56,552 nt of DNA from Candidatus Krumholzibacteriia bacterium (GCA_035268685.1 DATFKK010000122.1:1-56552); one strand, 5' to 3'; shown: positions 10,151-56,552, counted from the first letter of the stretch. Made by a program: numbers and translations. Notes: a model not told the origin generated them from the letters alone.

Positions 10151-10173
10151 GGGTCTCCTGACCGGTTTCGGGT

Positions 10174-11953: not shown

Positions 11954-11959
11954 GTCCGC

Positions 11960-12601: not shown

Positions 12602-12627
12602 GTCGCCTCCACTCCGGCGGTCAGACC

Positions 12628-13532: not shown

Positions 13533-13586
13533 CCGCGGGAAGCTACCAGCGAAGGGGCGACTTTCCAAGACCGGAGCCGACACGAA

Positions 13587-13614: not shown

Positions 13615-13641
13615 CTCTCGAAGGATGTGCGCCGCCGGATC

Positions 13642-21711: not shown

Positions 21712-21771
21712 CGCGGGCCTCCGCGAGAAAGAGAGTGCGCGTGCCGTCGTCGGTGCCGCGTGTCCGGGTGC

Positions 21772-21777
21772 TACACT
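21772..21777 (+). promoter_or_regulatory. Possible -10 element TACACT for the plus-strand secreted protein gene
   Basis: TACACT within GCTACACTC lies 62 bases before the proposed GTG start at 21840. The same GCTACACTC string occurs at the much better promoter at 54282-54311. No convincing -35 is spaced correctly here, so this is tentative. If real, transcription would begin close to a GTG at 21783. Confidence 0.28.
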
Positions 21778-21839
21778 CACGGGTGCATCCGCGTCAAGAC
21801 ACCGTGCCCGCCGGGGCCGCTGCCACGAGGTCCACCGCC

Positions 21840-39094: not shown

Positions 39095-40033
39095 TCAGTC
39101 CGCGTGGAGGATCACCACACGCACGTGACCGTCGAGCTCGGCGCGCAGGTCCGACCTCTGGACGAAGTCGATCTCGACCTGCTCACGGGGCAACTGCATG
39201 GCGTCGGCGAGGAAGTGCGCCACGGCGGTGGACCTCTTCTCGGCCAGAGCGAGCTCCTCGGCCTCGACCTCGACCCTCACCGGCGAGTACGGATGGGCAC
39301 GGACCACGTCCGCGGCATGCGTGAGCCAATCCTCGCCACCGATCCGCAGGCGCGATTCGTGCCGCTGGAACAGTTCGCCCCCGCTGAACTCGAGCACCAG
39401 ATCGTCCCCACGCGGATAGCGCAGGGCCGGTACGCGGAAACTCACACCTGCATGGTTGTAGGTGTTGGTGCCCTCGTCCTTCTGGGTGAAGACGTAGCTG
39501 TAGGGGTAACCGGGGCGAAGCATGCTGCCGTCGTCGCCGAAACCGTCCCACACGAGTTCGTCGGGAACGTCGTCGCCGCCCTCGAAGGTCCGGAAGGGTG
39601 CCCCGCGGAAGTCGGTGATCACCAGCTTCCATTCCTCGAGGTCGTGACCCGGTTCGGGCTCGGGGTAGAAACGGGCCACGGGCGTGCTCACGACCTCGGG
39701 CAGCCAGTAGTGCGGCGTCTGGTCGCTGGCGAGGTCCTCGATGTTGTTCAGATGCGGCTTGAGGCCGCTCACCGGGCTCATCTCCAGCGCCGCCTCGTCG
39801 GCCTCGCTCAGGAACGAGTCGATCATCGCGGCACTGAGTTCGAACTCGTAGCCCTGCTTCTCGACGTCCTGCCGGACCTCGTTCTGGGCCTCGACCACGA
39901 CGTCGTCGAGCACCGCACCCGACTCGCCCTCCGCCGTGAAGGTCTCACCGGATTCCCCGGCCTCGACGGTCTCCTGCGCGTAGGCGAACGGACCGGACAA
40001 CAGCAGGATCACCACAAGCAGACGGCCGAACAT
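39095..40033 (-). CDS. Exported protein with FlgD-like and OmpA-like regions, last gene of the surface-motor operon
   Basis: This 312-residue protein has a signal peptide (MFGRLLVVILLLSGPFAYAQ). A Glu-rich helical part follows (about 20-105), then a FlgD-like Ig segment (KLVITDFRGAPFRTFEGGDD ... DELVWDGFGDDGSMLRPGYP). The C-terminal part reads LALAEKRSTAVAHFLADAMQ and RAELDGHVRVVI, like the helix and last strand of an OmpA-type peptidoglycan-binding domain, though the usual N-x-x-L-S-x-x-R-A motif is degenerate. The ATG at 40033 has TGAGGA upstream and follows the TonB-like stop by eight bases. It may anchor the complex to the cell wall; this is inferred. Confidence 0.78.
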   Translation of the reverse strand: MFGRLLVVILLLSGPFAYAQETVEAGESGETFTAEGESGAVLDDVVVEAQNEVRQDVEKQGYEFELSAAMIDSFLSEADEAALEMSPVSGLKPHLNNIEDLASDQTPHYWLPEVVSTPVARFYPEPEPGHDLEEWKLVITDFRGAPFRTFEGGDDVPDELVWDGFGDDGSMLRPGYPYSYVFTQKDEGTNTYNHAGVSFRVPALRYPRGDDLVLEFSGGELFQRHESRLRIGGEDWLTHAADVVRAHPYSPVRVEVEAEELALAEKRSTAVAHFLADAMQLPREQVEIDFVQRSDLRAELDGHVRVVILHAD

Positions 40034-40041
40034 GATCGTCC

Positions 40042-41322
40042 TCACTTCAGACGGAACACGAAGGTGATCACGCCCCACTGCTCGACCTGGGCCGCGCCCG
40101 CGTCGAGGGGAGCGAATCGGAATTCCTCGATGGCCGACAGTGCGGCCTGGTTCAGGTCGGAGTGCGCCGACATCTGCTGGATGCGCGTGGAATCCTTCAC
40201 GCGCCCGTCGGGCAGTACCGTGAAGTGCACGGCGACCACGCCCTCCCAGCCCATGCGCCGGGCCTTCGCCGTGTACTCCGGCGAAACGACCTTCACGATG
40301 TCACGGCCGGCGATCTGACCGGTGATGGTCATGCCCATGCCGTTCTTGTCGATCTTCTTCGGTGTGGCTTCGGCGATGCCGGTCTCGGCCGGCGCCGCAC
40401 GGTCCGTCTCCACGGAGCGGTCGGGTGCGGGCGCGATACCACCACGGGAGCGCAATCCCCCGCCCCCACCGCCGGTCCCGTAGTCCAGGATCGTGCGACG
40501 ACCACCGTTCTCCGAGGATCCGCGCGACGGCGGAGCGATGTCGTCCCCTCCACCCTCGGCGATTCCGCGCGACCCGCGCGAGGGCGTCAACGACCGACCC
40601 GGAGCGCGATAATCCGCGCTGTCTCGGGATCGGCTGCGCAAGTCGCCGCCGCCGGGGACTGCCGAGGACCCCGCGTCGGCGATGGCGCCGCCGCCCCGCC
40701 GCGACGACTCCGTCGACGGATCGATGTCTCCTCCGACGACGTCGAGGGTCGCCCGCCGGCTCTGGAGCTCTCCACCGGTGCGATCGAGATCCGGCGCCGG
40801 ACCCGAGCGCGACGTCAGTTCGGGAGCGCTCGTGTCGGCCGCCTCCTGCGTGGCCCGGCCGCGGGTCTGCGGCACGTCGAGTGCGCGGGCGAGATCGTCG
40901 TCGCGGCTCTCGAGCTTCGGCTCGACCTCGACCTCCCGAGTCTGAATCGCGCTCGGCTGCGGCAGGTCGGGCTCGACCTCGGCGACCTCGGCCCGCGAGC
41001 GGACCGGGTCGGTCTTCGGCGCCGCGGGCGTCGGCTCCGGTGGATCCGGTTTCTCGGCCGATCGCGTCGAGATACCCTGCCCGGGATCGATCGAGGGCGG
41101 CGTCCGCTTGGCCAGGGTCTTCAACGCGACCTTCTCCTCGATGTCGTCCCCGAGGTGCGCCTCGATGTAGCTGATCTTGGTCAGCTCCGCAGCCACCTCC
41201 GGCATCTTCCCCGCGTTGTGCAGCCCCAGGGCGACGAGCAGCAGCAGTGCCGCGTGCACGACCATGCTCGTGGCCAGGCCGCCACGCGTGGAGCGGCTGC
41301 GATCGACGGCGGCCCGCATCAT
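40042..41322 (-). CDS. TonB/AgmX-like energy transducer with long Ser/Gly/Arg-rich linker
   Basis: This 426-residue protein has an N-terminal transmembrane anchor (ATSMVVHAALLLLVALGLHN, with the S-H pair typical of TonB). A linker of about 260 residues, unusually rich in Arg, Ser, Gly and Asp, replaces the normal Pro-Glu/Pro-Lys rod. A TonB C-terminal-like domain ends it (VSPEYTAKARRMGWEGVVAV, LPDGRVKDSTRIQ, ALSAIEEFRFAPL). It would pass energy from the ExbB/ExbD motor across the periplasm. The ATG at 41322 overlaps the preceding exbD-like stop by four bases (ATGA), with GGGAGG upstream. Confidence 0.87.
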   Translation of the reverse strand: MMRAAVDRSRSTRGGLATSMVVHAALLLLVALGLHNAGKMPEVAAELTKISYIEAHLGDDIEEKVALKTLAKRTPPSIDPGQGISTRSAEKPDPPEPTPAAPKTDPVRSRAEVAEVEPDLPQPSAIQTREVEVEPKLESRDDDLARALDVPQTRGRATQEAADTSAPELTSRSGPAPDLDRTGGELQSRRATLDVVGGDIDPSTESSRRGGGAIADAGSSAVPGGGDLRSRSRDSADYRAPGRSLTPSRGSRGIAEGGGDDIAPPSRGSSENGGRRTILDYGTGGGGGGLRSRGGIAPAPDRSVETDRAAPAETGIAEATPKKIDKNGMGMTITGQIAGRDIVKVVSPEYTAKARRMGWEGVVAVHFTVLPDGRVKDSTRIQQMSAHSDLNQAALSAIEEFRFAPLDAGAAQVEQWGVITFVFRLK

Positions 41323-41765
41323 GGCGAGCCTCCCTCGTTCTCGTCTTCGGGCGAGGTGGCCAGCGAGATCTCACGCGGCTTCGCCTTTTCGATCTCGGCG
41401 ATGACCTTCTCGACCTCGCCGTAGGGCAGGTCCTGGTCGGCGCGCACCACGGCGATCGCGGTCGGAGTCTCGAGGAGCAGGTCCTCCATCAGCGGCTGCA
41501 CCTCGGCGAGCGCGATCGGCACGTCCGAGAAATAGATCTCGTCGATGCGATCCGTCTCGGGATCGAGCGTGCAGGAGATCTCGATCTTGTTCTCGTCCTC
41601 GTTCTCGACCGCCCGCGCCGTGGGGAGGTTCACGTCGACGGCTCCCTGGTCGAGCTTCGGGGAGATGATCATGAGCGTGAGGACGACGACCAGCGAGACG
41701 TTGATCACCGGGATCACGTCGGTCTTCGACTCTTCACGGGGGCCGCGGCGCTTTCGCATACCCAT
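41319..41765 (-). CDS. ExbD/TolR-like protein with Asn in place of the channel Asp
   Basis: This 148-residue biopolymer-transport protein has one transmembrane helix (PVINVSLVVVLTLMIISP) and a periplasmic domain of about 100 residues. In ExbD/TolR the motif is P-L-x-D-V with an essential proton-carrying Asp; here it reads P-V-I-N-V, with Asn22 at that place. Its C-terminal domain (VVRADQDLPYGEVEKVIAEI) fits the family's usual pattern. The ATG at 41765 shares its A with the stop of the upstream exbD-like gene (TGATG), with AGGAGG upstream. It may act as a structural partner beside the Asp-containing copy. Confidence 0.88.
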   Translation of the reverse strand: MGMRKRRGPREESKTDVIPVINVSLVVVLTLMIISPKLDQGAVDVNLPTARAVENEDENKIEISCTLDPETDRIDEIYFSDVPIALAEVQPLMEDLLLETPTAIAVVRADQDLPYGEVEKVIAEIEKAKPREISLATSPEDENEGGSP

Positions 41766-42193
41766 CAGCGACCCTCCTGCAGGTTGAGCAGGGCGAGGTC
41801 GCTCGCGCCACTCGCCTTGGCGATGTCCAGCACCGTCACGACCTGGCCAAGGCGGACCCGGTCGTCGGGTACCACGACCACCGTACGCTTCTCGCGCGCG
41901 GCCAGCTTCTGCGTGAGCGTGGCCTCGAGCTGATCGAGGGCGACGGGCTCGTCGTTGACCTTGATGCCGTCGGGGTGCACGGCCACCGTCAGCAATCCGA
42001 CGCGCTCGCTGGCGGGCTGGTGCACGACGGTGGGGTTGCCCTTCTCCACCGGCTTGCTCTGCACCTCGATCCCGCTCCACAGCAGCGTGGGCAGCGTGAC
42101 GAGGAAGACCACGATCAGAGTGGTCGTCACGTCGGCCAACGGCGTGATGTTCGCGTCCGTGATGCCGTCGGTACCGATGGCGTGCCTACTCAT
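41765..42193 (-). CDS. ExbD/TolR-like proton-channel protein
   Basis: This 142-residue protein has a single N-terminal transmembrane helix preceded by NITPLADVTTTLIVVFLVTL. Asp21 is the conserved proton-carrying aspartate of ExbD, TolR and MotB. The periplasmic domain (residues 45-140) includes VVVVPDDRVRLGQVVTVLDI. With the ExbB/TolQ protein it would form a proton-driven stator. The ATG is at 42193, 34 bases after the ExbB-like stop. The next gene, a second ExbD-like copy, overlaps it by one base. Confidence 0.92.
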   Translation of the reverse strand: MSRHAIGTDGITDANITPLADVTTTLIVVFLVTLPTLLWSGIEVQSKPVEKGNPTVVHQPASERVGLLTVAVHPDGIKVNDEPVALDQLEATLTQKLAAREKRTVVVVPDDRVRLGQVVTVLDIAKASGASDLALLNLQEGR

Positions 42194-42227
42194 GGGCGAT
42201 TCCTCACGATCCTTGGATCCGGGGCCT

Positions 42228-42935
42228 TCAGCTCAGGAACCCGGCCGGAACCGGCTCCTGCTGCGACGGCGTCGTGGAGTTCGAGGTCGATCGGGGTGCG
42301 GACCGGCGCGTGTTGCCGGCGGCGGCGGCCAGATGCACCAGCAGCTCCTCGCGCGCGTCCTCGAGATCGACCACACGCGTGCGGATCTTGCGGACGAAGA
42401 CGTTGAAGCAGACGGTGGCGATGACCGCGACGATGATCCCGGCCGCGGTGGTCATGAGCGCCTCGGACACGCCCATGGCGACGACCTGGCTCCCCCCGCT
42501 GCCCGTGCGCGCGATCGCGGCGAAGGCGCGGATGATCCCGACCACGGTCCCGAACAGACCCAGCAGCGGAGCGATGTTCGACATCGTCCCGAGCACGCCT
42601 AGGTTGCGTTCCATCTCGACCTGCTCGACCTCGATCGCGGTGTTCATCCGCTCGGTGAGCTGGGTACGCCCGAGGCCGGCGTGGGCCAGGCCCTGGGCGA
42701 GGACGCGGCCGGCGGCGCTCTTGTCCTTCTTCGCCACGTCCACGGCACCGGCCAGGTTGGCCGCCTGGATCTTGTTCGCGATCTTCTTCAGGAGATCACG
42801 ACTGTTCGCGCGGCTCTGCGCGAAGTAGAGGGCCCGCTCGAGGGCGAAGCCCAGGGTCACGATCGAGCAGACCAGCAACACCAGCATCGTGGGCGACGCG
42901 ATGAAGAGGTCGACGATGGACATGTCACCGAACAT
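42228..42935 (-). CDS. MotA/TolQ/ExbB-family proton channel protein
   Basis: This 235-residue inner-membrane protein has three transmembrane segments: MLVLLVCSIVTLGFALERAL near 17-36, and a pair in the C-terminal half, SNIAPLLGLFGTVVGIIRAF and ALMTTAAGIIVAVIATVCFN. These carry the L-G-L-x-G-T-V-x-G-x-I and T-T-x-A-G signatures of the family. It would surround the ExbD-type helices and conduct protons to drive movement or energy transfer. The ATG at 42935 follows GGGAGG by about 11 bases. It sits 26 bases after the large TPR gene. Confidence 0.93.
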   Translation of the reverse strand: MFGDMSIVDLFIASPTMLVLLVCSIVTLGFALERALYFAQSRANSRDLLKKIANKIQAANLAGAVDVAKKDKSAAGRVLAQGLAHAGLGRTQLTERMNTAIEVEQVEMERNLGVLGTMSNIAPLLGLFGTVVGIIRAFAAIARTGSGGSQVVAMGVSEALMTTAAGIIVAVIATVCFNVFVRKIRTRVVDLEDAREELLVHLAAAAGNTRRSAPRSTSNSTTPSQQEPVPAGFLS

Positions 42936-42961
42936 GGTGGTTGCATCCTCCCTGTGGCCGA

Positions 42962-45900
42962 TCAGCGACCGGCCGCCTGCATCTGCTGGAGGGCCTCGAC
43001 GCGGGTCTGCGCCATGGCCGTCCACTCCGGATTCGTGGCCTTCGTGAGGATCCGCTCGTAGGCGGACAGAGCGGCCTGCCACTCGCCGCGGTCCTCGTGC
43101 AGCTCGCCCATCTCGGCCAGGCCGGCGATCGCGAAGGGATCGTCACCTCCACCCGAGGCGGCTTGCGCGAAGCTGTCGATGGCCCGGTCGATCCGGTCCG
43201 CTTTCAGGTGACATTCGCCCTGGCGGTAGCGGATCTCGCTCTCGCTGCCGTGACCGGCGGCGAGGGCCGTCTCGTAGGTCTCGATCGCCTCGTCCCACGC
43301 CCCGAGTTCGTCCTGATGCAGCGCGGCGACCTCGAGCCACAGGCCCTGGGCCTTGTCGTGGTCGGGGTAGTTGCCGAGGAACTCACGGTAGGTGGCGATC
43401 GCGGAGGTCCAGTCCTCGATCTGCTGGTAGCAGACCGCGCCGTTGAACAGAGCCAACGGAGCGTACTCGCCACCCGGGAAGGCATCGCGGAGAGCCTCGT
43501 ACTCGTGCGCCGCCTCACCGAAACGCTCGAGGCGGTACAGCACGGTCCCGGCGCGGAACCGGGCCAACTCGGCGAGGTCGTGGTCGGGGTGCGTGAGCAC
43601 GAAGTTCCGGAACCCGGCCAGCGCCGGTTCGTTCTGATCGAGACGGTAGTAGCTCTCGGCCAGATAGAACAACGCCTGCACCGCACTCTCGCTGTCGGGG
43701 TGGTCGAGCGTGACGCGCTCGAAGGACGCTGCCGCGCTCGCGTAGTCGCCGGCCGCGAAAGCGTCCTGGCCTTCGTTCCACAGGAGATCGGCGGCCATTG
43801 CGCTGTCGGGATTGCGCGCGAGATACTCGTTCATGTCGCGGCCACTGCGGTAGTAGGCCGACTGTACGCCCAGCTCGGCGTCGGCCACGCGCGGATCCCG
43901 AGGGAAGTCGGCCACGAAGCGCTCGAAGGCCTCGATCGCCGCGTCGTCCTCGCCCAGGTTGTAGGCGCAGTTGGCCAGGCCGAAGGCCGCGTCGGCGGCG
44001 TGCGCTCCGTCGGCGTCGTGCTGCTGCAGACGACGATAGCTCTGACGGGCGGCGGCGAAGTCCCCCAGACCGAACTGCGTATCGGCGATCCGGTACAGAG
44101 CCCGGGCCATACGATCCCCGTCGGGGAATCGGCGGACCTGCTCCTTCCAGGTGTCGACAGCCTGCTCGTAGTACTGCAGCCGGTAGTAGCAGTCCGCCGC
44201 GTTGGCGAGGGCGACCTCGGCCTCGGGTGCGTCTGGATTTCGCTCGAGGAACTCCTGGTACTCCCGCAGTGCGTCCTCGTATTCCCGCCGATTGAAGTGG
44301 ATCGAGCCCACGGCCAGCGCGTTCGTTCCCTGTTCGGTGTCCGCATTGGCCAGGGCCCGCAGGAATCGCTCCTGCTCCTCCAGGGCCAGGTCGTACTCAC
44401 CGATCTGGCTGTAGCTCGCCACCAGACCCTGCAACGACGACGCGGCCACGTTGCTCTTCGGGTAACCGCTCAGGACGAGACGGTACATCTGTGCGGAATC
44501 GCGATAGAGCCCCTGCTCGTAGTAGGCCTCGCCGAGCAGGTAGTAGGTCCGGGCCCGCCAGTGGCTCGGCGTGGGCAGAAGCTTCTGCGCGATGAACTTG
44601 TAGTTGGTGATCAGACGATCCGGCTGGCTCCCCTGCTGGTAGGCCAGTGCCGAGAGGAAGAGCGCCCGCTCTGCCACGTCGGTGTTCACGTGCTTGTCGA
44701 GAACGTTCTGGAACGAACGGATTGCGGATTTGCGGTCACCGAGCTCGAGATGTGCAAAGCCCTGCAGAACCCGGACCCGTGCGGCCAGCGGGTCGCCGGG
44801 AAAGCGCCGCAGGAACTCGTCGGCCAGGATCGTGGCCTGGCCGAAGTTCTCGTCCTCGGCGTAGGCGTAGACGATCTTGTGCATGGCCGCCGAGGCGACC
44901 TTGGTCTGTCCGAAGCGCTTGACCACGTCGGTCCACGAGAAGATCGCCTCGGCGCTGCGACCGAGCTGCATGTGACAATCGCCGATCAGGTAGCGCGAGT
45001 AGGCACTCACGAGATCGTCGGGGAAGGCCCGCGCCACTTCCTCGAGCTGTCGGATGCTCTCGTCGTACTCTCCCGACCGGTAGGTCACGCACGCGAGCTT
45101 GTAGCGGGCGTTCGGAACGAAGGGACTGTCGGGGTGGTCCTCGATGAAGCCCCGGTAGCTGCGCACGGCCACCGAGTTCTGACCCGACCGATAGAAGGCT
45201 TCGGCGATGCTGAACGCCGCGTCGTCCACCAGCGGACTCTCGGGGTGCTCGCGCAGGACCTGCCGGTAGCGCTGGATGGCCAGGATGTACTGACCCATCT
45301 CCTCGAGCGTCCGCCCCCAGTACAGCCGGCCCCGGTCGCTCGGCACGCCGGAGAAGTACTCGAGCGCGCGGTCGAAGTCCCCGTCGTGGTAGGCGAACAG
45401 ACCCAGGGCGAACTTCACCTGGGGTCGCTGCTCGTACCCGGGCCGGGTCTCGAGGAGTTCTCGATAGGCCGCTTCGAGCTTCAGCCAGTTTCCGTCGGCG
45501 ATGTACGCCAGACCGCTCTCGTAGAGGGCCTCGCCCACGAGGAAGCTGTCCTCGTAGTCGTCGAGAAGCATCTGGTAGCTGGTGATCGCGTCGTCGAAGC
45601 GTCCCAGGTTGAAGTGGCACTCGGCGGTGCGGAGCAACACGGCGGCCTTCATAACGTCGTCCCGACCACGCCGGTCCTCGACCTTGCGGTACTCGCGAAG
45701 AGCCCCTTCGAAGTCACCGGCCGCGAAGTAGCACTCGCCGAGCATGTACTGCGCGCGGGCCGCTCGATCGCTCTTGCCGTAGGTGTCGACGAAGAGCCGG
45801 TACTGGGCCATTGCGGCCGACTTGTCCTTGCCAGTGGCGAAGGCTTCGCCGGCGGACTCCCACAGGCCGTCCTCCGAGGGAACCCGCTGCTCGGTGTCGG

Positions 45901-45964
45901 CCACGGCGACCACCGGGAGCAGCACCGTGAGAAGGAACGTGAACACGAGGGCGGCGCGGTTCAT
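42962..45964 (-). CDS. Giant exported tetratricopeptide-repeat protein (1000 residues)
   Basis: A signal peptide (MNRAALVFTFLLTVLLPVVA, then V-A-D) is followed by an almost uninterrupted TPR array to the C-terminus, on the order of 25 helix pairs by eye. Typical units read RAQYMLGECYFAAGDFEGAL and AALFLSALAYQQ-like stretches, many with the Y-Y-R-L or Y-R-x-G variants and the linker P-D-S seen in periplasmic YbgF/BamD-type TPRs. It probably forms a long solenoid scaffold in the periplasm. The ATG at 45964 has AAAGGAAG upstream and overlaps the barrel gene's stop by four bases (ATGA). A bridge between the motor proteins downstream and the barrel upstream is inferred. Confidence 0.88.
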   Translation of the reverse strand: MNRAALVFTFLLTVLLPVVAVADTEQRVPSEDGLWESAGEAFATGKDKSAAMAQYRLFVDTYGKSDRAARAQYMLGECYFAAGDFEGALREYRKVEDRRGRDDVMKAAVLLRTAECHFNLGRFDDAITSYQMLLDDYEDSFLVGEALYESGLAYIADGNWLKLEAAYRELLETRPGYEQRPQVKFALGLFAYHDGDFDRALEYFSGVPSDRGRLYWGRTLEEMGQYILAIQRYRQVLREHPESPLVDDAAFSIAEAFYRSGQNSVAVRSYRGFIEDHPDSPFVPNARYKLACVTYRSGEYDESIRQLEEVARAFPDDLVSAYSRYLIGDCHMQLGRSAEAIFSWTDVVKRFGQTKVASAAMHKIVYAYAEDENFGQATILADEFLRRFPGDPLAARVRVLQGFAHLELGDRKSAIRSFQNVLDKHVNTDVAERALFLSALAYQQGSQPDRLITNYKFIAQKLLPTPSHWRARTYYLLGEAYYEQGLYRDSAQMYRLVLSGYPKSNVAASSLQGLVASYSQIGEYDLALEEQERFLRALANADTEQGTNALAVGSIHFNRREYEDALREYQEFLERNPDAPEAEVALANAADCYYRLQYYEQAVDTWKEQVRRFPDGDRMARALYRIADTQFGLGDFAAARQSYRRLQQHDADGAHAADAAFGLANCAYNLGEDDAAIEAFERFVADFPRDPRVADAELGVQSAYYRSGRDMNEYLARNPDSAMAADLLWNEGQDAFAAGDYASAAASFERVTLDHPDSESAVQALFYLAESYYRLDQNEPALAGFRNFVLTHPDHDLAELARFRAGTVLYRLERFGEAAHEYEALRDAFPGGEYAPLALFNGAVCYQQIEDWTSAIATYREFLGNYPDHDKAQGLWLEVAALHQDELGAWDEAIETYETALAAGHGSESEIRYRQGECHLKADRIDRAIDSFAQAASGGGDDPFAIAGLAEMGELHEDRGEWQAALSAYERILTKATNPEWTAMAQTRVEALQQMQAAGR

Positions 45965-47268
45965 CGATCTTCCTTTCGCCGCTGGGGCGAGCGTTCGGCG
46001 GCCTCGCTGCCGCTGATCTCCACGCGGATCGGCGAGCGGGTGCGGTCGCGGAAGCCGAGGACGTCGACGCCCACGTCGAAGTCCCACTCCTGGGTCATGT
46101 CGTCGAGAACGGTGATCCGGGCGGTGTAGCGGCCGTCGGGCACGAGTCGGCCGTCCTCGTCGGCACCCTCCCAGGTGATGCCCTCGGGCGGGCTCCCGTT
46201 GCCCCGCAGGCGACGGACGACCTCGTCGCGCTCGTTGCGGATCTCGAGCGTCCAGGCCTCGACCTCGCCCCGCACCGCGGTGTCGATGTCGAAGGTCACG
46301 TCGCGCTTGTCGCCACTGGGGCTGAAACGTGCCCGATCGCGCTTCATCTTGACGCCGTAGGGAACGCCGAAGCGGAAGGTGGCGCTGAGCACGTGCGTCG
46401 CGCCGAGGTCGTGGGTCAGGTAGCCGTAGTCGAACTGCCAGCTCTGCCAACGGAAAGCGGCACCGAAGGATCCCTGTTCCCGCGCCGCGTCGAAGCCTCC
46501 GCGGAGCGCGAAGTTGCGCACGGCCCAGGCCTCGATCCCGGCCTTCAGATCGGCTTCCATGTCGTCGGTCTTGACGACCTCGGTGCTCACGACGAAGCGG
46601 TTGCGCAGCAGATGGAGTGCCGTCCCCGCCCGGAAGGTGCGCGCCCAGGACTCGGGCTGCTCGTCGAGGGTGACCTCGGGCCGCACGGCGTTCTGGACCG
46701 CGAAGCCCAGACTGATGGTGCGATGAGGGCGCAGGTACACGCCGACGTCGGCGCCGAAGCCTCCGCCCGATGCGCCGGCGAGTGAGTGCGTGACCGACTT
46801 CAGGTGCACGCCGTAGGACAGACGACCGCTGCCCCGGGCGTAGGACAGGCCGAAGGCGCCCGCCGTCTCGTCGAAGGTCTCGCCCAGGTCCTCGTACAGC
46901 GTCGACCTCTCGAAGCCGCCGCTGCGGAGGAAGGCGCCCGTCAGCGCGAAGCTGCCGTATCCCTCGGTGGGGAGGCCGAGCGTCAGGAAACTGTACTGCG
47001 TGTCCTCGAACAACGTGGCGCCCATGGCCGTGAACTCCATGGTGCGCAGGCTCGCGTAGCCGGCCGGGTTCCAGTAGCTGGACGCCGCATCGTCGGCCAG
47101 CGCGGTGACCGCGTTGCCCAGTCCGAGCGCGCGAGCACTGCTGCCGTAGCGCAGGAAGCCGCCGGGCGCGCCGGCGTCGTCGGCCGCGCGGACCGGCGGC
47201 GTCGCCGCGAACACGAGGGCCGCCAGCGTCAGGATGGTGAGGATCGGGTGCGTATGGCTGCGGTGCAT
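45961..47268 (-). CDS. PorV/PorQ-family outer-membrane barrel with FlgD-like C-terminal domain
   Basis: This 435-residue protein has a signal peptide (MHRSHTHPILTILTLAALVF, then A-A-T-P-P-V-R-A). Residues 30-320 match the PorV/PorQ/FadL-like barrel of FCB bacteria: GGFLRYGSSARALGLGNAVT, DDAASSYWNPAGYASL, then alternating strands. A FlgD-like Ig domain follows (DVTFDIDTAVRGEVEAWTLE ... EGITWEGADEDGRLVPDGRY). In type IX secretion PorV receives cargo carrying a C-terminal sorting domain. I chose ATG at 47268 (GAGG nine bases upstream); GTG at 47286 overlaps the upstream stop (GTGA) and adds six residues. Confidence 0.87.
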   Translation of the reverse strand: MHRSHTHPILTILTLAALVFAATPPVRAADDAGAPGGFLRYGSSARALGLGNAVTALADDAASSYWNPAGYASLRTMEFTAMGATLFEDTQYSFLTLGLPTEGYGSFALTGAFLRSGGFERSTLYEDLGETFDETAGAFGLSYARGSGRLSYGVHLKSVTHSLAGASGGGFGADVGVYLRPHRTISLGFAVQNAVRPEVTLDEQPESWARTFRAGTALHLLRNRFVVSTEVVKTDDMEADLKAGIEAWAVRNFALRGGFDAAREQGSFGAAFRWQSWQFDYGYLTHDLGATHVLSATFRFGVPYGVKMKRDRARFSPSGDKRDVTFDIDTAVRGEVEAWTLEIRNERDEVVRRLRGNGSPPEGITWEGADEDGRLVPDGRYTARITVLDDMTQEWDFDVGVDVLGFRDRTRSPIRVEISGSEAAERSPQRRKEDR

Positions 47269-47282
47269 GGCGTCGAACCTCG

Positions 47283-50200
47283 TCACTTCACCACGGCGAT
47301 CTTGCGCCGCAGGTCGTAGCCGTCGCCCTGGATGCGACAGATGTAGCCGCCGTTGGCCACCACCCGACCCTCACCATTGCGCCCGTCCCACGAGAACTGG
47401 GCGGTCGACTCGGCCTGTACGGCCATCTGCGCGGTGCGAACCACGCCGCCGTACAGGTCGTAGATGGTGATCGTCGCGGTGCCGTCACTGGTCGGCCGGA
47501 ACAGGAGGATCGTCGGCTCTTCGCCGGCGCGGAAGGGATTCGGACGGTTGGTGATGCGCTTCTCGGTGGTCATGGCGGTGGTCGTGTACAACTCGACCGT
47601 CCGCACTTCCTCCACCGCTCCGGAGACCTCTTCGGCGAAGAATCGGAGCGTGTGCTGCCCGGGATCCCCTGCGCCGAGCTCTCCCAGCGTGAAGGGACCC
47701 GTGTAGATCTGCTGGGGCACCGGCGGGTCGCCCACGTCGACGTTGGCGAACACGGCCTGGATCCCCTGTGGGTCCTCGGTCCGCGGAACCAGCGTGATGC
47801 GGGTGTCCGACGAGACCAGCCAGCCGTCTCCGTAGGCCGTGGCCGGGGGATCGAAGACGAGATCCGTGCGTGGAGGGCCGATCACCTCGACGAGCAGTTC
47901 GTTGCTCGACAGTGCCGACAGCTCCGCCACGAGCCGCACGTCGTCGGTCGCGAAGGGTCGCGTCGTGAGGTCCACCCGCGCCAGGCCGGCGGCGTCGGTC
48001 GTCGCGTCCCAGGCCTCGGCCTGTGCCGTGCCCAACCACGCATCGCCCTCGAGGACGCGGAAGCGCACCGGTGCATCGGCGATGGCGTTGCCCGCACGAT
48101 CGGTCACACGCGTGACCAGACCCACCGTCTCGTCGGGTCGGAGCGCACGGACGAGACGCCGACCCGGAACCTCCTCGGCACGCAACGACATCAGCTGCGG
48201 GGCCGAGGGAATCACGGTGATGACGGAGCTGAAGGCGCGATCGCCCTGCAGGTCCTCGAGCTCCAGATAGATCGGCTCGGCGCGGTCGTAGCACTGACCC
48301 GCGATCTCGTCGATCCCCTCGACCGTCGTCCCGAGGGTGTCGCAGAGCACGCCGGCCGGACTGAGCATCGTGTCCGGGCGGGCCTGATTGCCGCTGAACG
48401 CGCGCAACGTGTAGCTGCGGTCGTCCATGGTCACCCGCTGTCCGGTCACGATGTCGATCCGGCTCACCGACATGGTCCAGGGCTCGCCCGCGACCACGGT
48501 GTCGGGCACGTCGAAGGACCAGGTCACGCCGACCGGCTGTACCGTGATCGGATCGCTGAAGCTCTCACGACCACGAACGTCGCTCACGCGGATCACGATC
48601 TGCTCGCTCGTCGCGTAGCTCTGGCCCGCGATTACCGATTCGCCCGCCGTGAGCGTTCCGGTCTCGATTCCGAGACGGTCGCTCGCCGCACTGCGATCGG
48701 GCCGCAGGGCCTGGAGGCTGAACTCGTTGCCCGCGTTGATGCGCTCGCCGGTCTCGGGGTTCACCAGGCGAACCGTGACCGGGAAGGTCGCCGGTGGGCC
48801 CGCGGTGACGATCGCCGGATCGGGAACCACGATCTCGTACTCGGCTTCGTTCACAGGCACGTCCACGCGGCCCGTCCCGACCGCCGAGTTCGTGGCATCG
48901 GTCACGAAGACCGGGATCACGCCGGGATCTCCGAGCACGACCTCGAAGTCGCGGCTCCCGTTGACGAAGGCCGCGCCGTCGAGACCGGGATCCACGAGAT
49001 CCAGCCCGCTCCCCGACGAAGTCAGGTGCAGTTCGCCGCTCTCCAGCTCGTCGACCAGGTTGTAGTACTGGTCGACCGCGCGCACGCGAACCGTGAAGGG
49101 CGCTTCCGCCTGTTGCGTGGCGACGGTGCCGATCTTGCCCGTCGGAGTGTTCGACCCGGGCACGGCCGTCTCACCCGGCGCCACGATCTGCAGACGCTTG
49201 TACCCGTCGGCCTGCAGCACGCAGACGTTCGACAGACCGGTGACGCCGGTCGTGTCGCTCACCGAGAGGAAGACGTCCTCGGACCGGGTGTAGGACTGGG
49301 CCACCGTCACGCGCCCCGCTTCGAGCTGCGCCTGACGTACTCCGAGCTCGCCCGTGCCCTCGACACCCGTGCTGGCGCTGAGGATCGACATCTGGACCAT
49401 ACGGTCCTGCGTCACCACCACCTGCCCGGTGTTGCCGTCGATCAGTTCGACGTCGGCCTGGAAGCTCGTGGGCGGACCCACGGTGGCGGTGTCCGGCAGC
49501 GTCACCCGGAAGTACAGCCCGCCGGTGTTCATCCGGATCACGTCGCTCACGGCTTCGCGCCCGAAGTCGTCACTCACGCGGATCCGGAAGTCCTCGACGG
49601 TGTCGTAGGTCTGGTCGGCGATCACCTGCACGCCGTTCACGAGCTGGCCCGCCTGTACCCCGAGCCCACCGTTCGCCACCGCCCCCGAAGGCAGGAGAGC
49701 CGTCAGGTAGAACCGTGTCTGGGCGGTCGGTACGACGTTGCCGGTGACCGGATCGATCAGACGTACGGTCACGCGGAACGGCGCCCCCGTCGACGCCGTG
49801 GGGTCGGCCTCGATCGCGTAGACGTAGGGCGGCTCCACCGGCACCGGCACCATCTGCGCGGGGCGCGTGACGTCGGCCTCGTCGTAGATCGTGACCTCGA
49901 CCGTCCCCGGATCCGTCAGGAATCCGGTGAACGTGCGCTTGCCGCTGACGAAGGGCACGTTGTTGACGTCGGGATTGTTCGGCAGGGCGAAGCTGTTGTC
50001 GCTGGCGACGAGCCGCAGATCGCCGACGTTCGTCGTGTCGGCCAGGTTCCAGTACTGGTCAACCGCGCGTACGGTGATCGGGAAGGGCTGACCGCTGCGG
50101 TGAGCGTCGGGGGCTCCACTCTTGCCCGTGTCCTCGTACAGCGACACGCCCGGTTCCACCACTTCACCCGGGGCGACGACCTGCAGACGCTTGTAACCGT

Positions 50201-53200
50201 CCGACCGCAGAGCGAAGATCGGACTCGATCCGCCGAGCCCCGTGGAATCGGTCACGGTCAGGTAGACGTTCTCCGCGCGGGTATAGCTCTGCTCGAAGTT
50301 GATCGTGCCGCGATCGAGGCGTTGGGTCGTCGTGCCCAACACACCGGCTCCCGGTTGCCCCAGGGCGTCGTAGACGTCGACGGAGATCGGTCGGTCCTGT
50401 TCCACCCGGGTCTTGGTCTCGACGTCCTGGAGACGCACGCTGACCGGGAAGGTGGCGGGCGGACCGACGCGTGGTGTCTGCTCGGCATCCATCGTGACCA
50501 CGTACTCCAGCCCGTTGGGCTGCATGCGGATCACGTTCGAGTAGGCGAGACGCCCCGATGCGTCGCTGATCTCGATGATGATGTCCTCGACCGTGTCGTA
50601 GGCCTGGTTCGGCACCGACACCGATCCGTTCTCGAGCTGGGCCTGGGTCACGAACAACTGCGCCGTCGCGGGCTCCAGGTTGCTCTTCAGGGCGCGCATC
50701 GTGACCAGGTTGTTGGCCGCGGCCAGCGGCACACCGTTCGTGTCGACGAGGGCGATCTCGAAGGTGGGGAAGACCTGTGGCGGACCGACCTGCGCCGTGG
50801 GCGGGGTGGTGATCCGGTAGGTCGCGCCCTGCTCCACCGGGACGGTCACCGACTGCCCCTGGACATCGACGTTGTCCAGCGTGACCGCGTTGAGGTTCAC
50901 GTAGCCCGGGTTGATCAGGAAGACCGGGAAGGTGATCTCGCCGTTGACGAGCGATTGGCCGTTGTTCACGGGGTTGGTCTCGGACAGTGAGTTGTCGTCA
51001 CTGGCGATCGAGATCCGGTCGGTGGAATTGTCCACCAGGTTCCAGAAGCGATCGACGGAGCGCACGCGGAAGTCGAACTCCACACTGGCCGTCTGCGGAG
51101 CCGGGCTCCCCGTTTTTCCGTCGGACTCCGGACCACCGGGATTCGGGACCTCGCCCGGCGCAATGACCATGAGCCGCTCGAAGGGCCCCGGCTGCACGCT
51201 CACCGTCGACGCGTCGTTGCGGGTCGGCGTGATGAGGTCGCTGACGGCCAGGGTCTGATCGGAGGCCGTCCGGAACAGGAGATCGAAGTCCTTGTCGCCG
51301 GCCGGATCCAGTGCCTGATCGTTGGCCGAGATCATCTGGAAGAAGTCGGAGCTCTCGAAGTGCACGGTGGGCGACGCAGCCACCGGATTCCACCACTCGT
51401 CGGTGGCGATCACGCGCGCCACGACCGGGTCTCCGGCCATCACCGGCAGCGGAGTCCCGACCTTCCCCGGAGTGATGCCCGGCGTGTGCGTCTCGCCGGG
51501 CAGGAGCACGACGAGGTCCTCGTAGGTCCCCGGGAACACGTCGAAGGTGTTGCTGCTGTCGGTGCTGGCGAAGACGTCCTCGCGGGCGAACAGCCGGACG
51601 TCCTGTCCCGCGCGCGTGATCCGGATCGGACCGCGCCACACGCCCTGGTAGTCGCCGGCGCCGAAGCCGTCGGCCATGCTCACCCGGACCGGCTGCAGGA
51701 GTCCGTCGCCGAGACTGACCGAGATCGTCACCGAATCGGTGTACGCGTCGATGTGATTGTTGAACTGGTCCCGCGCGACCACGGTCACGTTGGGCAGGTA
51801 CGAACCCGCCTGGTGGTCGGGAATGGGATCGAGCCCGTCGTTCGGCGTGGGATTCGTGCGACTGTTGATTCCGATGTCGAAGTGGTCGATGGTCCCCGCC
51901 TTGACGGGGATCGTGGTCAGACCGAACACCCCGCTGTCGTCGTCGTCGATACGCACGGTCTGCTGGTTCGGGTCGGCCAGCGTCACCAGCGTGACTGCGA
52001 ACTCGGCCTGATTGCTGTTCAGCGACTGCGGTGACACCGGCAACGCCGCCGCGGCGTCACTGCTGCTGAACGAGGCGCTGATCGGCAGCGCGGCGTCGAG
52101 ATCGGTGATCGGGTTCCAGAACGAGTCGGTCGGGTAGACCGTCACGTCGAAGGGTACGCCCGCATCCTGCACCTGCGGCGTGCCCGTCTTCCCGTCGTTC
52201 TCGATCGTGTCGAAGATCCCCGGGTCGAGGTTCTCGCCCGGTGCCTCCACCACCATCCGCGCGTAGGGAGCCGGCGACACGTTCACCGTCGACGACAGAT
52301 GGGCGTCGACGCCGCTCGCCGTTCCCGCCAGGTTCTGCGGCCCCGCCGTCCGTAGCACCGCGCGGACCGAGGTGGGGTTGTTCAGGGTGACCGTGTTGTT
52401 CGGATGGTCGGGCAGTTCGAAGTATCCGGTGGGCGACCCGACGGTCACGTTGCGCTGCCCGGGCACCAGATTGGCGTACTTGTCCACGGGAATGACGAGG
52501 ACGTCGATCTCCTGACCGGCGACCACCGGCAGCGGCTCGCCGTTCAGGCCGCTGAAGTTCTCGTCGTTGCGGCCCCGCTCCCATTCTTCACCCGGCATCT
52601 CGAAGAGCACGCGGTCGAGGGGGCCGGCATTGACCTGGAAGGTCGCGCTGCGTTCGACCACACCGCCGTTGCTGTCGATCACGATCTGTGCGCTGAAGGC
52701 GCGCCTCGTGACCTGGACACTGGTGTTCAAGTAGCCGTTCTCGAAGGTCGCGTCGTCGATCAGGATCCAGTCGGGGTTCTCCTCGCCGATCTTCGCGCGA
52801 ACGGTCACCTGACCGTTGAAGGGGAACAGGTTGTCGCTGCTGTCCTCGGCGCGGACACGGATCTGGAAGGGAATGGTCGTCACCTGGACGCGTGTGGTGT
52901 CCCAGATCGCGTAGTCGAAGACGAAGTGGTCGAGGCCCTCGGGATTGACCAGTACGTTGCTCTCGCTGCTCGCGCTGATCGGCCCGCTGGCGGTGACCGT
53001 GACCCGTCGCGTGCCGGCGGTGAACAATCGCACGCTCTCGTCGAGGTCCACGTTGCTGACCATGGGCCCACCCGGAGGCAGGACCACGCCGGCGGCCGGA
53101 TCGTCGGAGCTCCACGAAAGGGTGGGATAGCTCCCCGGTTCCACCGGGTTCCAGTACTGGTCGGTGGCCCACACCGTCACCCCGTCGAAGGCATTGCCCG

Positions 53201-54029
53201 AGACCTGCGCCAGGGGCATGCCCGACTTCCCCGGACTCACGCCTGGCGTGAGCACCTCCCCGGGGAGCAACAGGACGACGGTGGCCAGGTCCTGGGGCCG
53301 CAGCGGGGTGACGACCGCACTGCCCGTGGCCACGGACATCTGACCCGGATACGTGCGCGTGTTGGCGACGGTCAGCGTGTTCTCGCGCGTGTTGGGGTCG
53401 GTCCCCAGGAAGACCACCTGGGTCGAGGCCTCGCCCAGCGCGAAGGCGCTTCCCTGCAGCGTGATCTGCGGGCCCGAGTCGAAGTTCCCGACCGCCGCGT
53501 CGAGCAGGACGTCGTCGCGGAAGTTCATGACCGGATCGCCCTCGGAGTCGCGCGCCTGCACGGTGACGTCGATGGCCTCGCCCACGCGCTTCTCGCCCGT
53601 GGGAACGGTCACGGTGAACGAGGTCACCGCGTCGTAGGCGTTGAGCTCGATCTCGGCCTGCGGGACCGAGACGTCGTTCAGGTCGCGCACACGCAGACGG
53701 ACCGGCGTGCCCTCGGCCTGGATGATCACGTCGTCGAACTGTCGCTCGCCGTTGAGCAGGTACTGCGCGGCGGGAAGACTCGCCGGCACGTCGGCGGAGA
53801 GCTGCGCGTTGATGAAGTCGGCGTTCGTGTCGGTCGTGCCGTCGGCATTCACCGCCCGCACCCGCACACTGAACGGCACCCCCACGGTCGCGGCAGGGCG
53901 CCCTTCGACGATCTGGGGATTGAGAACCGTGATCTCGAGCCGCTCGAAGGCCAGGGCGTCGGTCGCCGAGATCAGGAGGCACGTTGCAGAAAGAAGGCCG
54001 GTGGCCAGAGCACGAAGTGCATTCTTCAT
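47283..54029 (-). CDS. Giant secreted repeat protein (2248 residues) with FlgD-type C-terminal domain
   Basis: A signal peptide (MKNALRALATGLLSATCLLI, then S-A-T-D-A-L-A) precedes about 2100 residues of Ig-like beta modules. Two module types can be read. The PGE type has a P-G-E core, a K-x-G-x-P element and V-D-Q-Y-W-N-L or close variants. It occurs seven times, starting near residues 250, 471, 588, 836, 950, 1279 and 1610. The VGPP type has V-G-P-P near its start and Y-D-T-V-E-D or Y-T-R-S-E-D; six copies lie after residue 1000. The last 80 residues form a FlgD-like domain (RPNPFRAGEEPTILLF ... VVANGGYICRI). The ATG at 54029 has a weak GGGA. It is the first gene of the eight-gene operon and is probably displayed on or released from the cell surface. 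Confidence 0.87.
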   Translation of the reverse strand: MKNALRALATGLLSATCLLISATDALAFERLEITVLNPQIVEGRPAATVGVPFSVRVRAVNADGTTDTNADFINAQLSADVPASLPAAQYLLNGERQFDDVIIQAEGTPVRLRVRDLNDVSVPQAEIELNAYDAVTSFTVTVPTGEKRVGEAIDVTVQARDSEGDPVMNFRDDVLLDAAVGNFDSGPQITLQGSAFALGEASTQVVFLGTDPNTRENTLTVANTRTYPGQMSVATGSAVVTPLRPQDLATVVLLLPGEVLTPGVSPGKSGMPLAQVSGNAFDGVTVWATDQYWNPVEPGSYPTLSWSSDDPAAGVVLPPGGPMVSNVDLDESVRLFTAGTRRVTVTASGPISASSESNVLVNPEGLDHFVFDYAIWDTTRVQVTTIPFQIRVRAEDSSDNLFPFNGQVTVRAKIGEENPDWILIDDATFENGYLNTSVQVTRRAFSAQIVIDSNGGVVERSATFQVNAGPLDRVLFEMPGEEWERGRNDENFSGLNGEPLPVVAGQEIDVLVIPVDKYANLVPGQRNVTVGSPTGYFELPDHPNNTVTLNNPTSVRAVLRTAGPQNLAGTASGVDAHLSSTVNVSPAPYARMVVEAPGENLDPGIFDTIENDGKTGTPQVQDAGVPFDVTVYPTDSFWNPITDLDAALPISASFSSSDAAAALPVSPQSLNSNQAEFAVTLVTLADPNQQTVRIDDDDSGVFGLTTIPVKAGTIDHFDIGINSRTNPTPNDGLDPIPDHQAGSYLPNVTVVARDQFNNHIDAYTDSVTISVSLGDGLLQPVRVSMADGFGAGDYQGVWRGPIRITRAGQDVRLFAREDVFASTDSSNTFDVFPGTYEDLVVLLPGETHTPGITPGKVGTPLPVMAGDPVVARVIATDEWWNPVAASPTVHFESSDFFQMISANDQALDPAGDKDFDLLFRTASDQTLAVSDLITPTRNDASTVSVQPGPFERLMVIAPGEVPNPGGPESDGKTGSPAPQTASVEFDFRVRSVDRFWNLVDNSTDRISIASDDNSLSETNPVNNGQSLVNGEITFPVFLINPGYVNLNAVTLDNVDVQGQSVTVPVEQGATYRITTPPTAQVGPPQVFPTFEIALVDTNGVPLAAANNLVTMRALKSNLEPATAQLFVTQAQLENGSVSVPNQAYDTVEDIIIEISDASGRLAYSNVIRMQPNGLEYVVTMDAEQTPRVGPPATFPVSVRLQDVETKTRVEQDRPISVDVYDALGQPGAGVLGTTTQRLDRGTINFEQSYTRAENVYLTVTDSTGLGGSSPIFALRSDGYKRLQVVAPGEVVEPGVSLYEDTGKSGAPDAHRSGQPFPITVRAVDQYWNLADTTNVGDLRLVASDNSFALPNNPDVNNVPFVSGKRTFTGFLTDPGTVEVTIYDEADVTRPAQMVPVPVEPPYVYAIEADPTASTGAPFRVTVRLIDPVTGNVVPTAQTRFYLTALLPSGAVANGGLGVQAGQLVNGVQVIADQTYDTVEDFRIRVSDDFGREAVSDVIRMNTGGLYFRVTLPDTATVGPPTSFQADVELIDGNTGQVVVTQDRMVQMSILSASTGVEGTGELGVRQAQLEAGRVTVAQSYTRSEDVFLSVSDTTGVTGLSNVCVLQADGYKRLQIVAPGETAVPGSNTPTGKIGTVATQQAEAPFTVRVRAVDQYYNLVDELESGELHLTSSGSGLDLVDPGLDGAAFVNGSRDFEVVLGDPGVIPVFVTDATNSAVGTGRVDVPVNEAEYEIVVPDPAIVTAGPPATFPVTVRLVNPETGERINAGNEFSLQALRPDRSAASDRLGIETGTLTAGESVIAGQSYATSEQIVIRVSDVRGRESFSDPITVQPVGVTWSFDVPDTVVAGEPWTMSVSRIDIVTGQRVTMDDRSYTLRAFSGNQARPDTMLSPAGVLCDTLGTTVEGIDEIAGQCYDRAEPIYLELEDLQGDRAFSSVITVIPSAPQLMSLRAEEVPGRRLVRALRPDETVGLVTRVTDRAGNAIADAPVRFRVLEGDAWLGTAQAEAWDATTDAAGLARVDLTTRPFATDDVRLVAELSALSSNELLVEVIGPPRTDLVFDPPATAYGDGWLVSSDTRITLVPRTEDPQGIQAVFANVDVGDPPVPQQIYTGPFTLGELGAGDPGQHTLRFFAEEVSGAVEEVRTVELYTTTAMTTEKRITNRPNPFRAGEEPTILLFRPTSDGTATITIYDLYGGVVRTAQMAVQAESTAQFSWDGRNGEGRVVANGGYICRIQGDGYDLRRKIAVVK
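48209..51182 (-). repeat. Three tandem super-repeats of about 330 codons inside the giant protein gene
   Basis: Each unit is one PGE module followed by two VGPP modules. Units begin at 51182 (residue 950, FERLMVIAPGE), 50195 (residue 1279, YKRLQVVAPGE) and 49202 (residue 1610, YKRLQIVAPGE). The spacings are 987 and 993 bases, exactly 329 and 331 codons. The third unit ends near 48209. Copies share motifs at matching places but have diverged, so the array is old or under selection for variation. The end boundary is approximate. Confidence 0.8.
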
Positions 54030-54450: not shown

Positions 54451-56552
54451 ATGACCAATCGCCAGGGGCTCTTGCCCCTTCTCACCGCGCTGGCCGTGAT
54501 CGTGACCGCCACGGCTGCCCCCACGTCCTCTTCCGCTCGGCCCGCCGTCCCCGGCGAGCAGGCGCGCCCCGAGTCCCGGATCGTCGTCCCCGGCGCGGAC
54601 GCCGTGCACCACGGCGGACCCCGACTCGGCCTGAGCAAGGCCGTGACCGACTCCTTCAACATCTATGGTGGAGTGCGGAGTGACGGCTCGAACGATCGCC
54701 TACCCGAAGGACAATTCCAGGACTTCATCCTGTTCCCGAAGGAGCAGGGCTGGACGGGTGTCGACCTGACCGAGCAACCTTCTTTCTGGAACATCTCCAC
54801 GTTCAACGCCGAGAACCTCGACGCCACGACGGGCAATCGTGCGATGTGGTCGGGCATCCCCGCGGGCACGCCGGGCTTCCAGACCGCACCGGGCTACGGC
54901 AACAACTGGAACGACGGGCTTCTGTGGAGTGCACAGGCGAATCCCACGATCAACACGGACGTCCGCCTGACCTTCACGTTCAACTACGACCTCGAACCCG
55001 GGTACGACTTCTTCCTCGTCGAATACGACTCGGCCGGCGTCTGGGTCCCCATGGACACCTTCACCGGCTCGAACAAGAACGAACAGAACGAGTTCGTGTC
55101 GGCGGTCTCCTTCGACCGGACGGTGACCTTCACACCGTTGATGTACACGGGCCCGAGCGGCACCGACGTCCGGCTGCGCCTGCGCGTGTTCAGCGACGTC
55201 GCCTTCAGTGACGAGGACGGTCTGTACGTCTCCCGGGGCGCGGCACAGGTGGACAACATCGAGGTGAGCTTCAACGGGGCCGTGGTCTCGAACGAGGGCG
55301 ACGACGGCCTCGCGACCTTCGAGTCCCTGAGCCCGGGCGTGGACGACACCGAGGGGTGGAATCCGGTCGCCGGTGCCTTCGCGGGCGACTTCGCCAAGGT
55401 CCTGATCCAACTCCGCGACATCGATCCCTGCCGGCAGAACCTCAGCCCCATGCTCTCGTTCATCGACGACGGCACGCCGCCGGCCAACTCTCCGACCGAG
55501 AGCACCGGGGGCAGCACGTCGCCGAACTGGACCTACGGCGTGATCGGTGGATTCACCGTGAACTACACCGGTGGCGTCAGCAACGGGCTGGTCCCGGTCT
55601 CGAACGAGTGGTGGTCGCCCGAGATCGCGTGGGACGACACCACGACGACGGAGGACGACGCCCTGCGCGGCGGCGCGCTGATCCGCTTCACGGTGTGGCA
55701 GCACCTGCCCCTCCCCAACGGGATCTTCTGGACCTGGCGGGTGCGCAGTCTGGCCGAGGGGGACTGGAGCCCCTGGCAGGACCGTGGCTTCGTGTACTTC
55801 GGCGACGGCGGCGGGACCTACCTGAACACCCAGTTCGACGTGACCGACCTCCTGCAGACCGACCCGGAGAAGGTGCAACTCGCACTCGGAATGGCCGATC
55901 TCGCCGACGCCTTCGGCTTCCCGGGCAGCGACGCCACCCCGTCGCCCGCCTTCGACAACGTGAGCGTGTGGCGCTACGACTCCCCCGGTCCGGCGTTCGC
56001 GGCCCGTGAGATCGAACTCTTCAACGACGGTTTCCCCAACGAGGGCAGCATCGACCTCACCGATCCGTCCGCGCTGTCGGTGCGCATGGACATGGCACTC
56101 GACGTCAACCCGGTGGGCAGTTCCATCGTGCCGGGGGACTCGATCGTGGTCGACGCGACGGCTTCGATCCCGGGTACCGCTCTGCAGACGACCCCGGTGC
56201 TCCGCTGGGTGCTCGAGGCGAATCCCTTCTTCGACACCGCTCGGCAGATCCCACCCGACGCCACGAACATGGGGCCGGGAGCACGTGGCTGGACCCGGTA
56301 CATGGGTACCGTCCAGGGGGACAGCGCCCGGACCGCGGGCGGCGTCGCCGTTCCGGACAAGTTCTTCTTCGATCTCCCACACGACGGGCCGGCCAACGCG
56401 AATGCACCGCACCAGACCGACGAGCCGGCCATGTTCTACCCCGGGGACGTGATCCGCTACTTCGTCGAAGCGACCGACACCGCGGGCAACGTGGCGTCGA
56501 TCCCGGCCGACACCACGGGCTTCCTCGGGAACCTGCGTGAGTACAATCGAGT
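54451..56552 (+). CDS. Large exported protein, 3' end beyond window
   Basis: The first 700 codons of an open frame continue past the right edge. The ATG at 54451 follows GGAGG and GAGAGG. A signal peptide (MTNRQGLLPLLTALAVIVTA, then T-A-A-P) is followed by beta-rich modules with many Trp and Asp residues. Two regions look like lectin or CUB-type sandwich domains: near 130-270 (RLTFTFNYDLEPGYDFFLVE ... DEDGLYVSRGAAQVDNIEV) and near 390-510 (TYLNTQFDVTDLLQTDPEKV). I cannot name the family. Similar proteins of uncultured FCB-type bacteria end in a FlgD-like domain, which would lie outside this window. It diverges from the giant repeat protein. Confidence 0.82.
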   Translation, partial: MTNRQGLLPLLTALAVIVTATAAPTSSSARPAVPGEQARPESRIVVPGADAVHHGGPRLGLSKAVTDSFNIYGGVRSDGSNDRLPEGQFQDFILFPKEQGWTGVDLTEQPSFWNISTFNAENLDATTGNRAMWSGIPAGTPGFQTAPGYGNNWNDGLLWSAQANPTINTDVRLTFTFNYDLEPGYDFFLVEYDSAGVWVPMDTFTGSNKNEQNEFVSAVSFDRTVTFTPLMYTGPSGTDVRLRLRVFSDVAFSDEDGLYVSRGAAQVDNIEVSFNGAVVSNEGDDGLATFESLSPGVDDTEGWNPVAGAFAGDFAKVLIQLRDIDPCRQNLSPMLSFIDDGTPPANSPTESTGGSTSPNWTYGVIGGFTVNYTGGVSNGLVPVSNEWWSPEIAWDDTTTTEDDALRGGALIRFTVWQHLPLPNGIFWTWRVRSLAEGDWSPWQDRGFVYFGDGGGTYLNTQFDVTDLLQTDPEKVQLALGMADLADAFGFPGSDATPSPAFDNVSVWRYDSPGPAFAAREIELFNDGFPNEGSIDLTDPSALSVRMDMALDVNPVGSSIVPGDSIVVDATASIPGTALQTTPVLRWVLEANPFFDTARQIPPDATNMGPGARGWTRYMGTVQGDSARTAGGVAVPDKFFFDLPHDGPANANAPHQTDEPAMFYPGDVIRYFVEATDTAGNVASIPADTTGFLGNLREYNR

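Follow-up and report, generated by a model that had tools for sequence, protein, structure and literature searches.

The contig analyzed here comprises 56,552 nucleotides from Candidatus Krumholzibacteriia bacterium (DATFKK010000122.1, contig C122 of host genome G000) and is called the window in the following. Its minus strand carries, from position 54029 to 39095, an operon of eight genes encoding a giant secreted protein, a PorV-family outer membrane barrel, an exported TPR solenoid, an ExbB-type motor channel, two ExbD proteins, a TonB-family protein, and a protein with an OmpA-like end (genes 1 to 8; Table 1). We see an even chance that these proteins form a trans-envelope machine in which an ExbB/ExbD-TonB motor pulls via a periplasmic TPR arm on the PorV-type carrier and the surface protein. 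Sequence and fold comparisons established the parts of the operon, their order and conservation, a PorV-TPR fusion in a second phylum, and the loss of a transmembrane Asp from one ExbD. The architecture of the operon is well supported. The function that we infer from it is based on the conservation of the set and its order, on cargo marks of the giant protein, on the type IX secretion context of the host, and on another operon, termed operon II, which likewise joins a PorV-family barrel with ExbB-ExbD-ExbD-TonB.

Conservation of the eight genes

An earlier note, made from the sequence of the window, had described eight same-strand genes separated by 14, 26, 34, and 8 bases at four junctions and overlapping by 4, 1, and 4 bases at the other three, which we found to be exact. 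To follow these genes in other organisms, orthologues of the gene 4 product ExbB were sought in 58 related genomes, and the loci were taken as stretches of up to 20 kb. A profile search detected the full eight-gene set in the same order and on the same strand in 25 loci besides the window, including one whose giant gene is cut by the contig edge (L081). These 25 loci come from many families of the class. The other loci end at contig ends or at the stretch limits, and no wide locus lacked a member of the set. Among 80 genomes of the phylum, which all belong to one class, 56 matched a profile of gene 8 strongly; a 57th match covered only the Ig domain and was not counted.

Two paralogous subtypes of the operon were distinguished, which co-occur in some genomes: LONG, the kind present in the window, with a giant protein of ~2,250 amino acids (aa), and SHORT, with a protein of ~1,000 aa that also carries an FlgD_ig domain. 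The identity of ExbB to the gene 4 product was 45 to 67% within LONG and 33 to 40% for SHORT. In an ExbB tree calculated by a quick method, LONG (28 rows), SHORT (23 rows), and operon II (9 rows) each fell to one side of a branch, with supports of 93, 99, and 77, respectively.

The PorV alignment contained no stretch conserved enough for a scan of the sequence collection. With ExbB, most of the matches listed were unrelated ExbB loci, and one useful match (L092) pointed us to six small genomes, a group that we took as another phylum. Two loci of this phylum show the full gene order, with giant proteins of 1,824 aa (L229) and 3,120 aa (L227). In L227, the PorV barrel (residues 21 to 333) and the TPR solenoid (residues 402 to 1354) are fused in one uninterrupted frame of 1,356 aa, a fusion observed once. 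In another three loci (L228, L230, and L231), the layout is different again: here the gene directly before the exbB of a paralogous motor cluster, at the contig start, encodes a protein with an OmpA-like domain at its end; in L230 six Ig domains are located ahead of the OmpA-like end.

The co-occurrence and order of the eight families, a check suggested in the earlier note, were thus retained as a single unit in the 25 further loci and in the second phylum. The layout that the note had named as contrary to its view, with the motor beside ordinary TonB receptors and the giant protein and barrel elsewhere, was not seen in sufficiently wide loci of this operon. At the level of sequence, these data support the view that the eight genes are a single conserved unit.

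Motor, carrier, and surface protein

The labels given earlier to the motor, TPR, and barrel proteins (MotA_ExbB, two times ExbD, TonB_C, TPR, and PorV_fam) were upheld by profile scores. ExbB, ExbD, and a TonB_C protein, by which a Ton system is recognized, all scored well above the Pfam cut-offs, and gene 7 additionally reached 57.6 bits with TIGR01352 (cut-off, 27.1). The two ExbD proteins differ at the transmembrane Asp. In ExbD1 this residue was kept in 29 of 29 LONG loci, whereas ExbD2 had Asn at this site in 27 of 28 LONG loci, the exception being G054 with Asp. In the SHORT subtype both ExbDs had Asp in all 24 loci; all these counts refer to related loci and not to independent events. 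In the second phylum, ExbD1 had Asp, and in ExbD2 the residue was Ser (L227), Asn (L229), or Ala (L228, L230, and L231). These differing residues suggest that the Asp of ExbD2 was lost by more than one change, and the full length and conservation of ExbD2 argue against decay. In the LONG subtype, the axle is probably a pair of unlike ExbDs, of which one binds a proton and the other is unable to do so.

The C-terminus of the giant protein matched FlgD_ig with 33.5 bits (cut-off, 27), and the protein also matched the C-terminal part of PorU (E value, 7.7e-8). A model of its last 450 residues consisted of Ig domains (mean pLDDT, 88.6), and PorU of P. gingivalis (6za2) was among the best fold matches. 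As the remaining structure matches of the C-terminal part were mostly generic Ig/MG folds, we used only the match to PorU, which is backed by sequence. In the second phylum, the giant proteins of L227 and L229 exceeded the cut-off of 23 bits for the type A sorting domain TIGR04183, with 34.9 and 25.5 bits, respectively. The previous description of the giant as a repeat protein holds insofar as it contains a string of Ig-like/MG-like domains, but self-comparison revealed no internal BLAST repeat, the repeats being too diverged for this simple approach. The earlier note had made no mention of a cargo-like sorting domain, of the host's type IX background, or of the missing Asp in ExbD2.

Gene 2 encodes a member of the PorV family (NF033709, 119.6 bits; cut-off, 90) rather than PorV proper (equivalog NF033710, 39 bits; cut-off, 250), and its profile picked the solved PorV structure 6h3i with an E value of 8.9e-13. 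An FlgD_ig domain is present on this protein, too, and gene 8 has a related Ig domain (blastp, 4e-8 in a search of one pair). For gene 8 itself, no Pfam or NCBIfam profile, including PF00691, gave a match above the cut-off. In the AlphaFold2 model, the folded part (approximately residues 111 to 312, pLDDT mostly ~90) comprised an Ig-like and an OmpA-like domain, and the best Foldseek matches were OmpA-like peptidoglycan-binding domains (E value, 3.8e-7), which identifies the OmpA fold. According to an alignment, the Arg-containing motif LAxxRA is kept in LONG with a shortened Asp loop, and the peptidoglycan motif is missing in SHORT. Peptidoglycan binding by gene 8 is therefore uncertain.

Table 1. 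Genes of the operon in the window, and the insertion that separates exbB from the TPR gene in one genus
Feature	Position	Strand	Characteristics
Gene 1, giant protein, 2,248 aa	47283..54029	-	Secreted; signal peptide (a), Ig-like/MG-like domain string, C-terminal FlgD_ig / type IX type-A-like sorting domain
Gene 2, PorV/PorQ-family outer membrane barrel, 435 aa	45961..47268	-	Extra C-terminal FlgD-type Ig domain (a)
Gene 3, exported TPR solenoid, 1,000 aa	42962..45964	-	TPR_6, 247 bits, and many other TPR matches (a)
Gene 4, ExbB/TolQ-type motor channel	42228..42935	-	PF01618 (MotA_ExbB), 103 bits
Gene 5, ExbD1	41765..42193	-	PF02472, 62.9 bits; transmembrane Asp present (PLADV)
Gene 6, ExbD2	41319..41765	-	PF02472, 54.4 bits; Asn in place of the transmembrane Asp (PVINV)
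Gene 7, TonB-family energy transducer	40042..41322	-	TonB_C, 57.8 bits; long low-complexity linker
Gene 8, exported Ig-like (FlgD-type) protein with OmpA-like C-terminal domain	39095..40033	-	Predicted fold (a)
TPR-exbB insertion	L049 ~5997-10488; L050 ~9683-14163; L194 ~4500-9188		Some genes with membrane-protein-like N-termini
(a) Signal peptides (genes 1, 2, 3, and 8) were assigned by visual inspection only.

Two further reading frames were observed on the plus strand of the window. One of them (54454-56550) is divergent to the operon, is cut by the contig end, and has a secreted-looking start and no Pfam match; the other one (21345-23231) is a second frame on this contig with a C-terminal FlgD_ig domain. 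Scans for promoters and terminators gave results at chance level.

Type IX context and a possible mechanism

Type IX secretion is understood as being powered by GldLM, and Ton/Tol motors and type IX secretion are normally separate machines. SprA (TIGR04189) was matched in all 58 relatives and exceeded the cut-off in 55, including the host (G000:C142). A search for linkage of SprA to the operon was negative; other genes are conserved next to SprA (LptF/G-like and RimP/NusA/IF2-like genes, by eye). Peptidase_C25 was found in all seven genomes tested, with six such peptidases in the host, which also has six PorV-family proteins over the cut-off and 112 FlgD_ig matches, ~105 of them over the cut-off. 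GldL gave one match below the cut-off in 19 genomes, GldM none in 19, and GldN none in 9, in searches run without a positive control genome.

In Flavobacterium, the removal of substrate-bound PorV from SprA by pulling consumes energy, and SprE, a TPR protein, is located on the periplasmic side, below the translocon (PMC10994853). A pulling machine is favored because the operon holds counterparts to these parts, namely, a carrier, a TPR arm, a motor, and a protein with a sorting domain. Also shared with the type IX system of Bacteroidota (SprA, PorV, SprE/PorW, and GldKLMN/PorKLMN) are the C-terminal position and FlgD/type-A-like character of this domain, the use of a proton motor and, in the host, SprA and C25 peptidases. 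The operon differs by its ExbB/ExbD/TonB motor in place of GldL/GldM, by the extra Ig domain of its PorV protein, and by the combination of motor, carrier, and one cargo in a single operon with SprA encoded elsewhere.

We infer the contacts, the export route, and the direction of force as follows. The motor, by sequence an ExbB-ExbD1-ExbD2 set of the 5:2 family, would be driven by proton flow. The giant protein may be exported through the type IX-like SprA translocon of the host and would be held via its sorting domain by the PorV-type carrier, which has a probable periplasmic handle. TonB would pass force to the TPR solenoid attached at the periplasmic face of the barrel, and gene 8 could dock the assembly near the peptidoglycan via its Ig domain, which resembles that of the barrel. 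Pulling or moving the barrel would then either free the giant protein from the translocon or move or tension it on the surface; a machine that moves, exports, or tensions the giant was also what the earlier note had envisaged. A secretion or surface-moving machine in the narrower sense, in which ExbB/ExbD-TonB rather than GldLM powers a type IX-like PorV carrier by means of a heterodimeric axle with one proton-carrying ExbD, is a tentative and rather doubtful proposition.

Several observations weigh against the pulling machine. SprA is present also in genomes without the operon, which excludes the operon as the general motor of type IX secretion there. The giant protein of the window scored 21.2 bits with TIGR04183, just under the cut-off, and FlgD_ig domains abound in the host. 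The TPR protein reached 108 bits with the SprE/PorW profile NF052312 (cut-off, 250), which represents generic TPR similarity. Because diverged proteins could escape searches lacking a positive control, absence of GldL, GldM, and GldN is not shown by them, and the structural support comes from single-chain models. Finally, in one genus (L049, L050, and L194) the TPR gene and exbB are separated by ~4.2 to 4.5 kb of extra genes (Table 1). The earlier assumption of one operon therefore stands as regards the conserved gene block, but its arrangement as a single transcript is not universal.

Alternative explanations and related gene clusters

The insertion in this genus, together with ~300 bp at the corresponding site of L047 and L052, would fit two adjacent modules, giant-PorV-TPR and motor-TonB-gene 8, which are co-located but work separately. 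As every locus with enough contig has the two halves as neighbors, in two phyla as well as in two paralogous subtypes, this explanation is weakened despite the insertion, and we regard it as very unlikely. The strongest rival, although still an unlikely one, is a Tol-Pal-like tethering or integrity system that holds together outer membrane, wall, and surface coat, with the giant as a structural coat protein that is neither moved nor exported by the motor. Like Ton/Tol-Pal, the operon combines a motor and a TonB_C arm with a YbgF-type TPR protein (gene 3 matched tol_pal_ybgF with 318 bits over many stretches, as well as BamD-type TPRs) and an OmpA/Pal fold in gene 8, and gene 4 scored better with TolQ (106.5 bits) than with ExbB (85.1 bits). 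However, the equivalog cut-offs of TolQ (221) and TolR (127; scores of 41 and 54 bits) were not reached, profile searches found neither TolB nor Pal within the operon, and gene 8 has retained the peptidoglycan-binding motif only in part. Moreover, two unlike ExbDs and a dedicated surface protein distinguish the operon from Ton/Tol-Pal, the host carries other ExbB-ExbD clusters (C202 and C157) that could serve as Tol, and tethering leaves the constant presence of PorV and of a giant with a sorting domain unexplained. TonB-dependent uptake of a large substrate, with the barrel as receptor or porin and the giant as ligand catcher, agrees with the clear TonB_C domain of gene 7. The barrel is of the PorV family, though, and no plug or TonB-dependent receptor domain was detected by profile searches in any of the eight proteins. 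To our knowledge, TonB uptake systems do not include a TPR solenoid, and we rate this reading as the most improbable one.

A gliding-motility motor of the Agl-Glt type, with the giant Ig protein at the cell surface as a moving adhesin, appears distinctly unlikely. The Agl-Glt core complex (AglRQS and GltC/D/E/G) likewise has one TolQ-type and two TolR-type subunits with TPR and TonB-like partners (PMC3169522), but the operon has TonB_C instead of AgmX/GltG and, in addition, a PorV barrel and a giant protein with a sorting domain. The AgmX part of the "TonB/AgmX-like" label previously given to gene 7 was not borne out (20.5 bits; cut-off, 40), and GltC appeared only as a 37-bit TPR match (cut-off, 450). 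The Asp that ExbD2 lacks is described for AglQ as well as for AglS, and whether these two proteins form heterodimers is stated as unknown (PMC9389320). The host also has flagellar-looking genes. A better fit is offered by another cluster of the same genome (L072, G000:C118, 1597-10159) with genes for a TolQ-type, two TolR-type, an AgmX-domain (74.1 bits; cut-off, 40), and a 1,531-aa TPR protein as well as GltG/GltJ-tail matches, which from its sequence is likely a relative of the Glt core. For these reasons, membership of the operon in the Agl-Glt machinery was rejected, and the kinship suggested in the earlier note is not supported. As a separate observation, the two TolR-type proteins of the C118 cluster likewise differ at the Asp site, with Asn in one and Asp in the other.

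For the pulling machine, the paralogous operon II of the same phylum (L071 [G000:C40], L088, and L089) provides a parallel in the joining of barrel and motor. It differs in that it has neither a long TPR gene nor gene 8, keeps Asp in both ExbDs (C40), and has an ExbB of a separate clade, which was found also in genomes without the operon of the window. In C40 it includes a GWxTD-domain protein, and in L088 a TonB-receptor-like gene is also located upstream. As the earlier note had stated, no description of a system with exactly this set of genes was found in the open-access literature, subscription papers lying mostly outside this scope. We regard the operon as a variant on known kinds of systems (5:2 motors and type IX-like export), which might nevertheless be a distinct machine.

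If the proposed pulling machine is true, the motor of the type IX secretion route would be exchangeable, as SprA, PorV-family carriers, and many FlgD-type C-terminal domains occur here with GldLM undetected and with PorV beside ExbB-ExbD-ExbD-TonB, and Ton/Tol motors would be linked to surface-protein handling. The Asp loss in one ExbD makes it testable whether a TolR-type axle can be heterodimeric and whether an axle can work with a single proton carrier.

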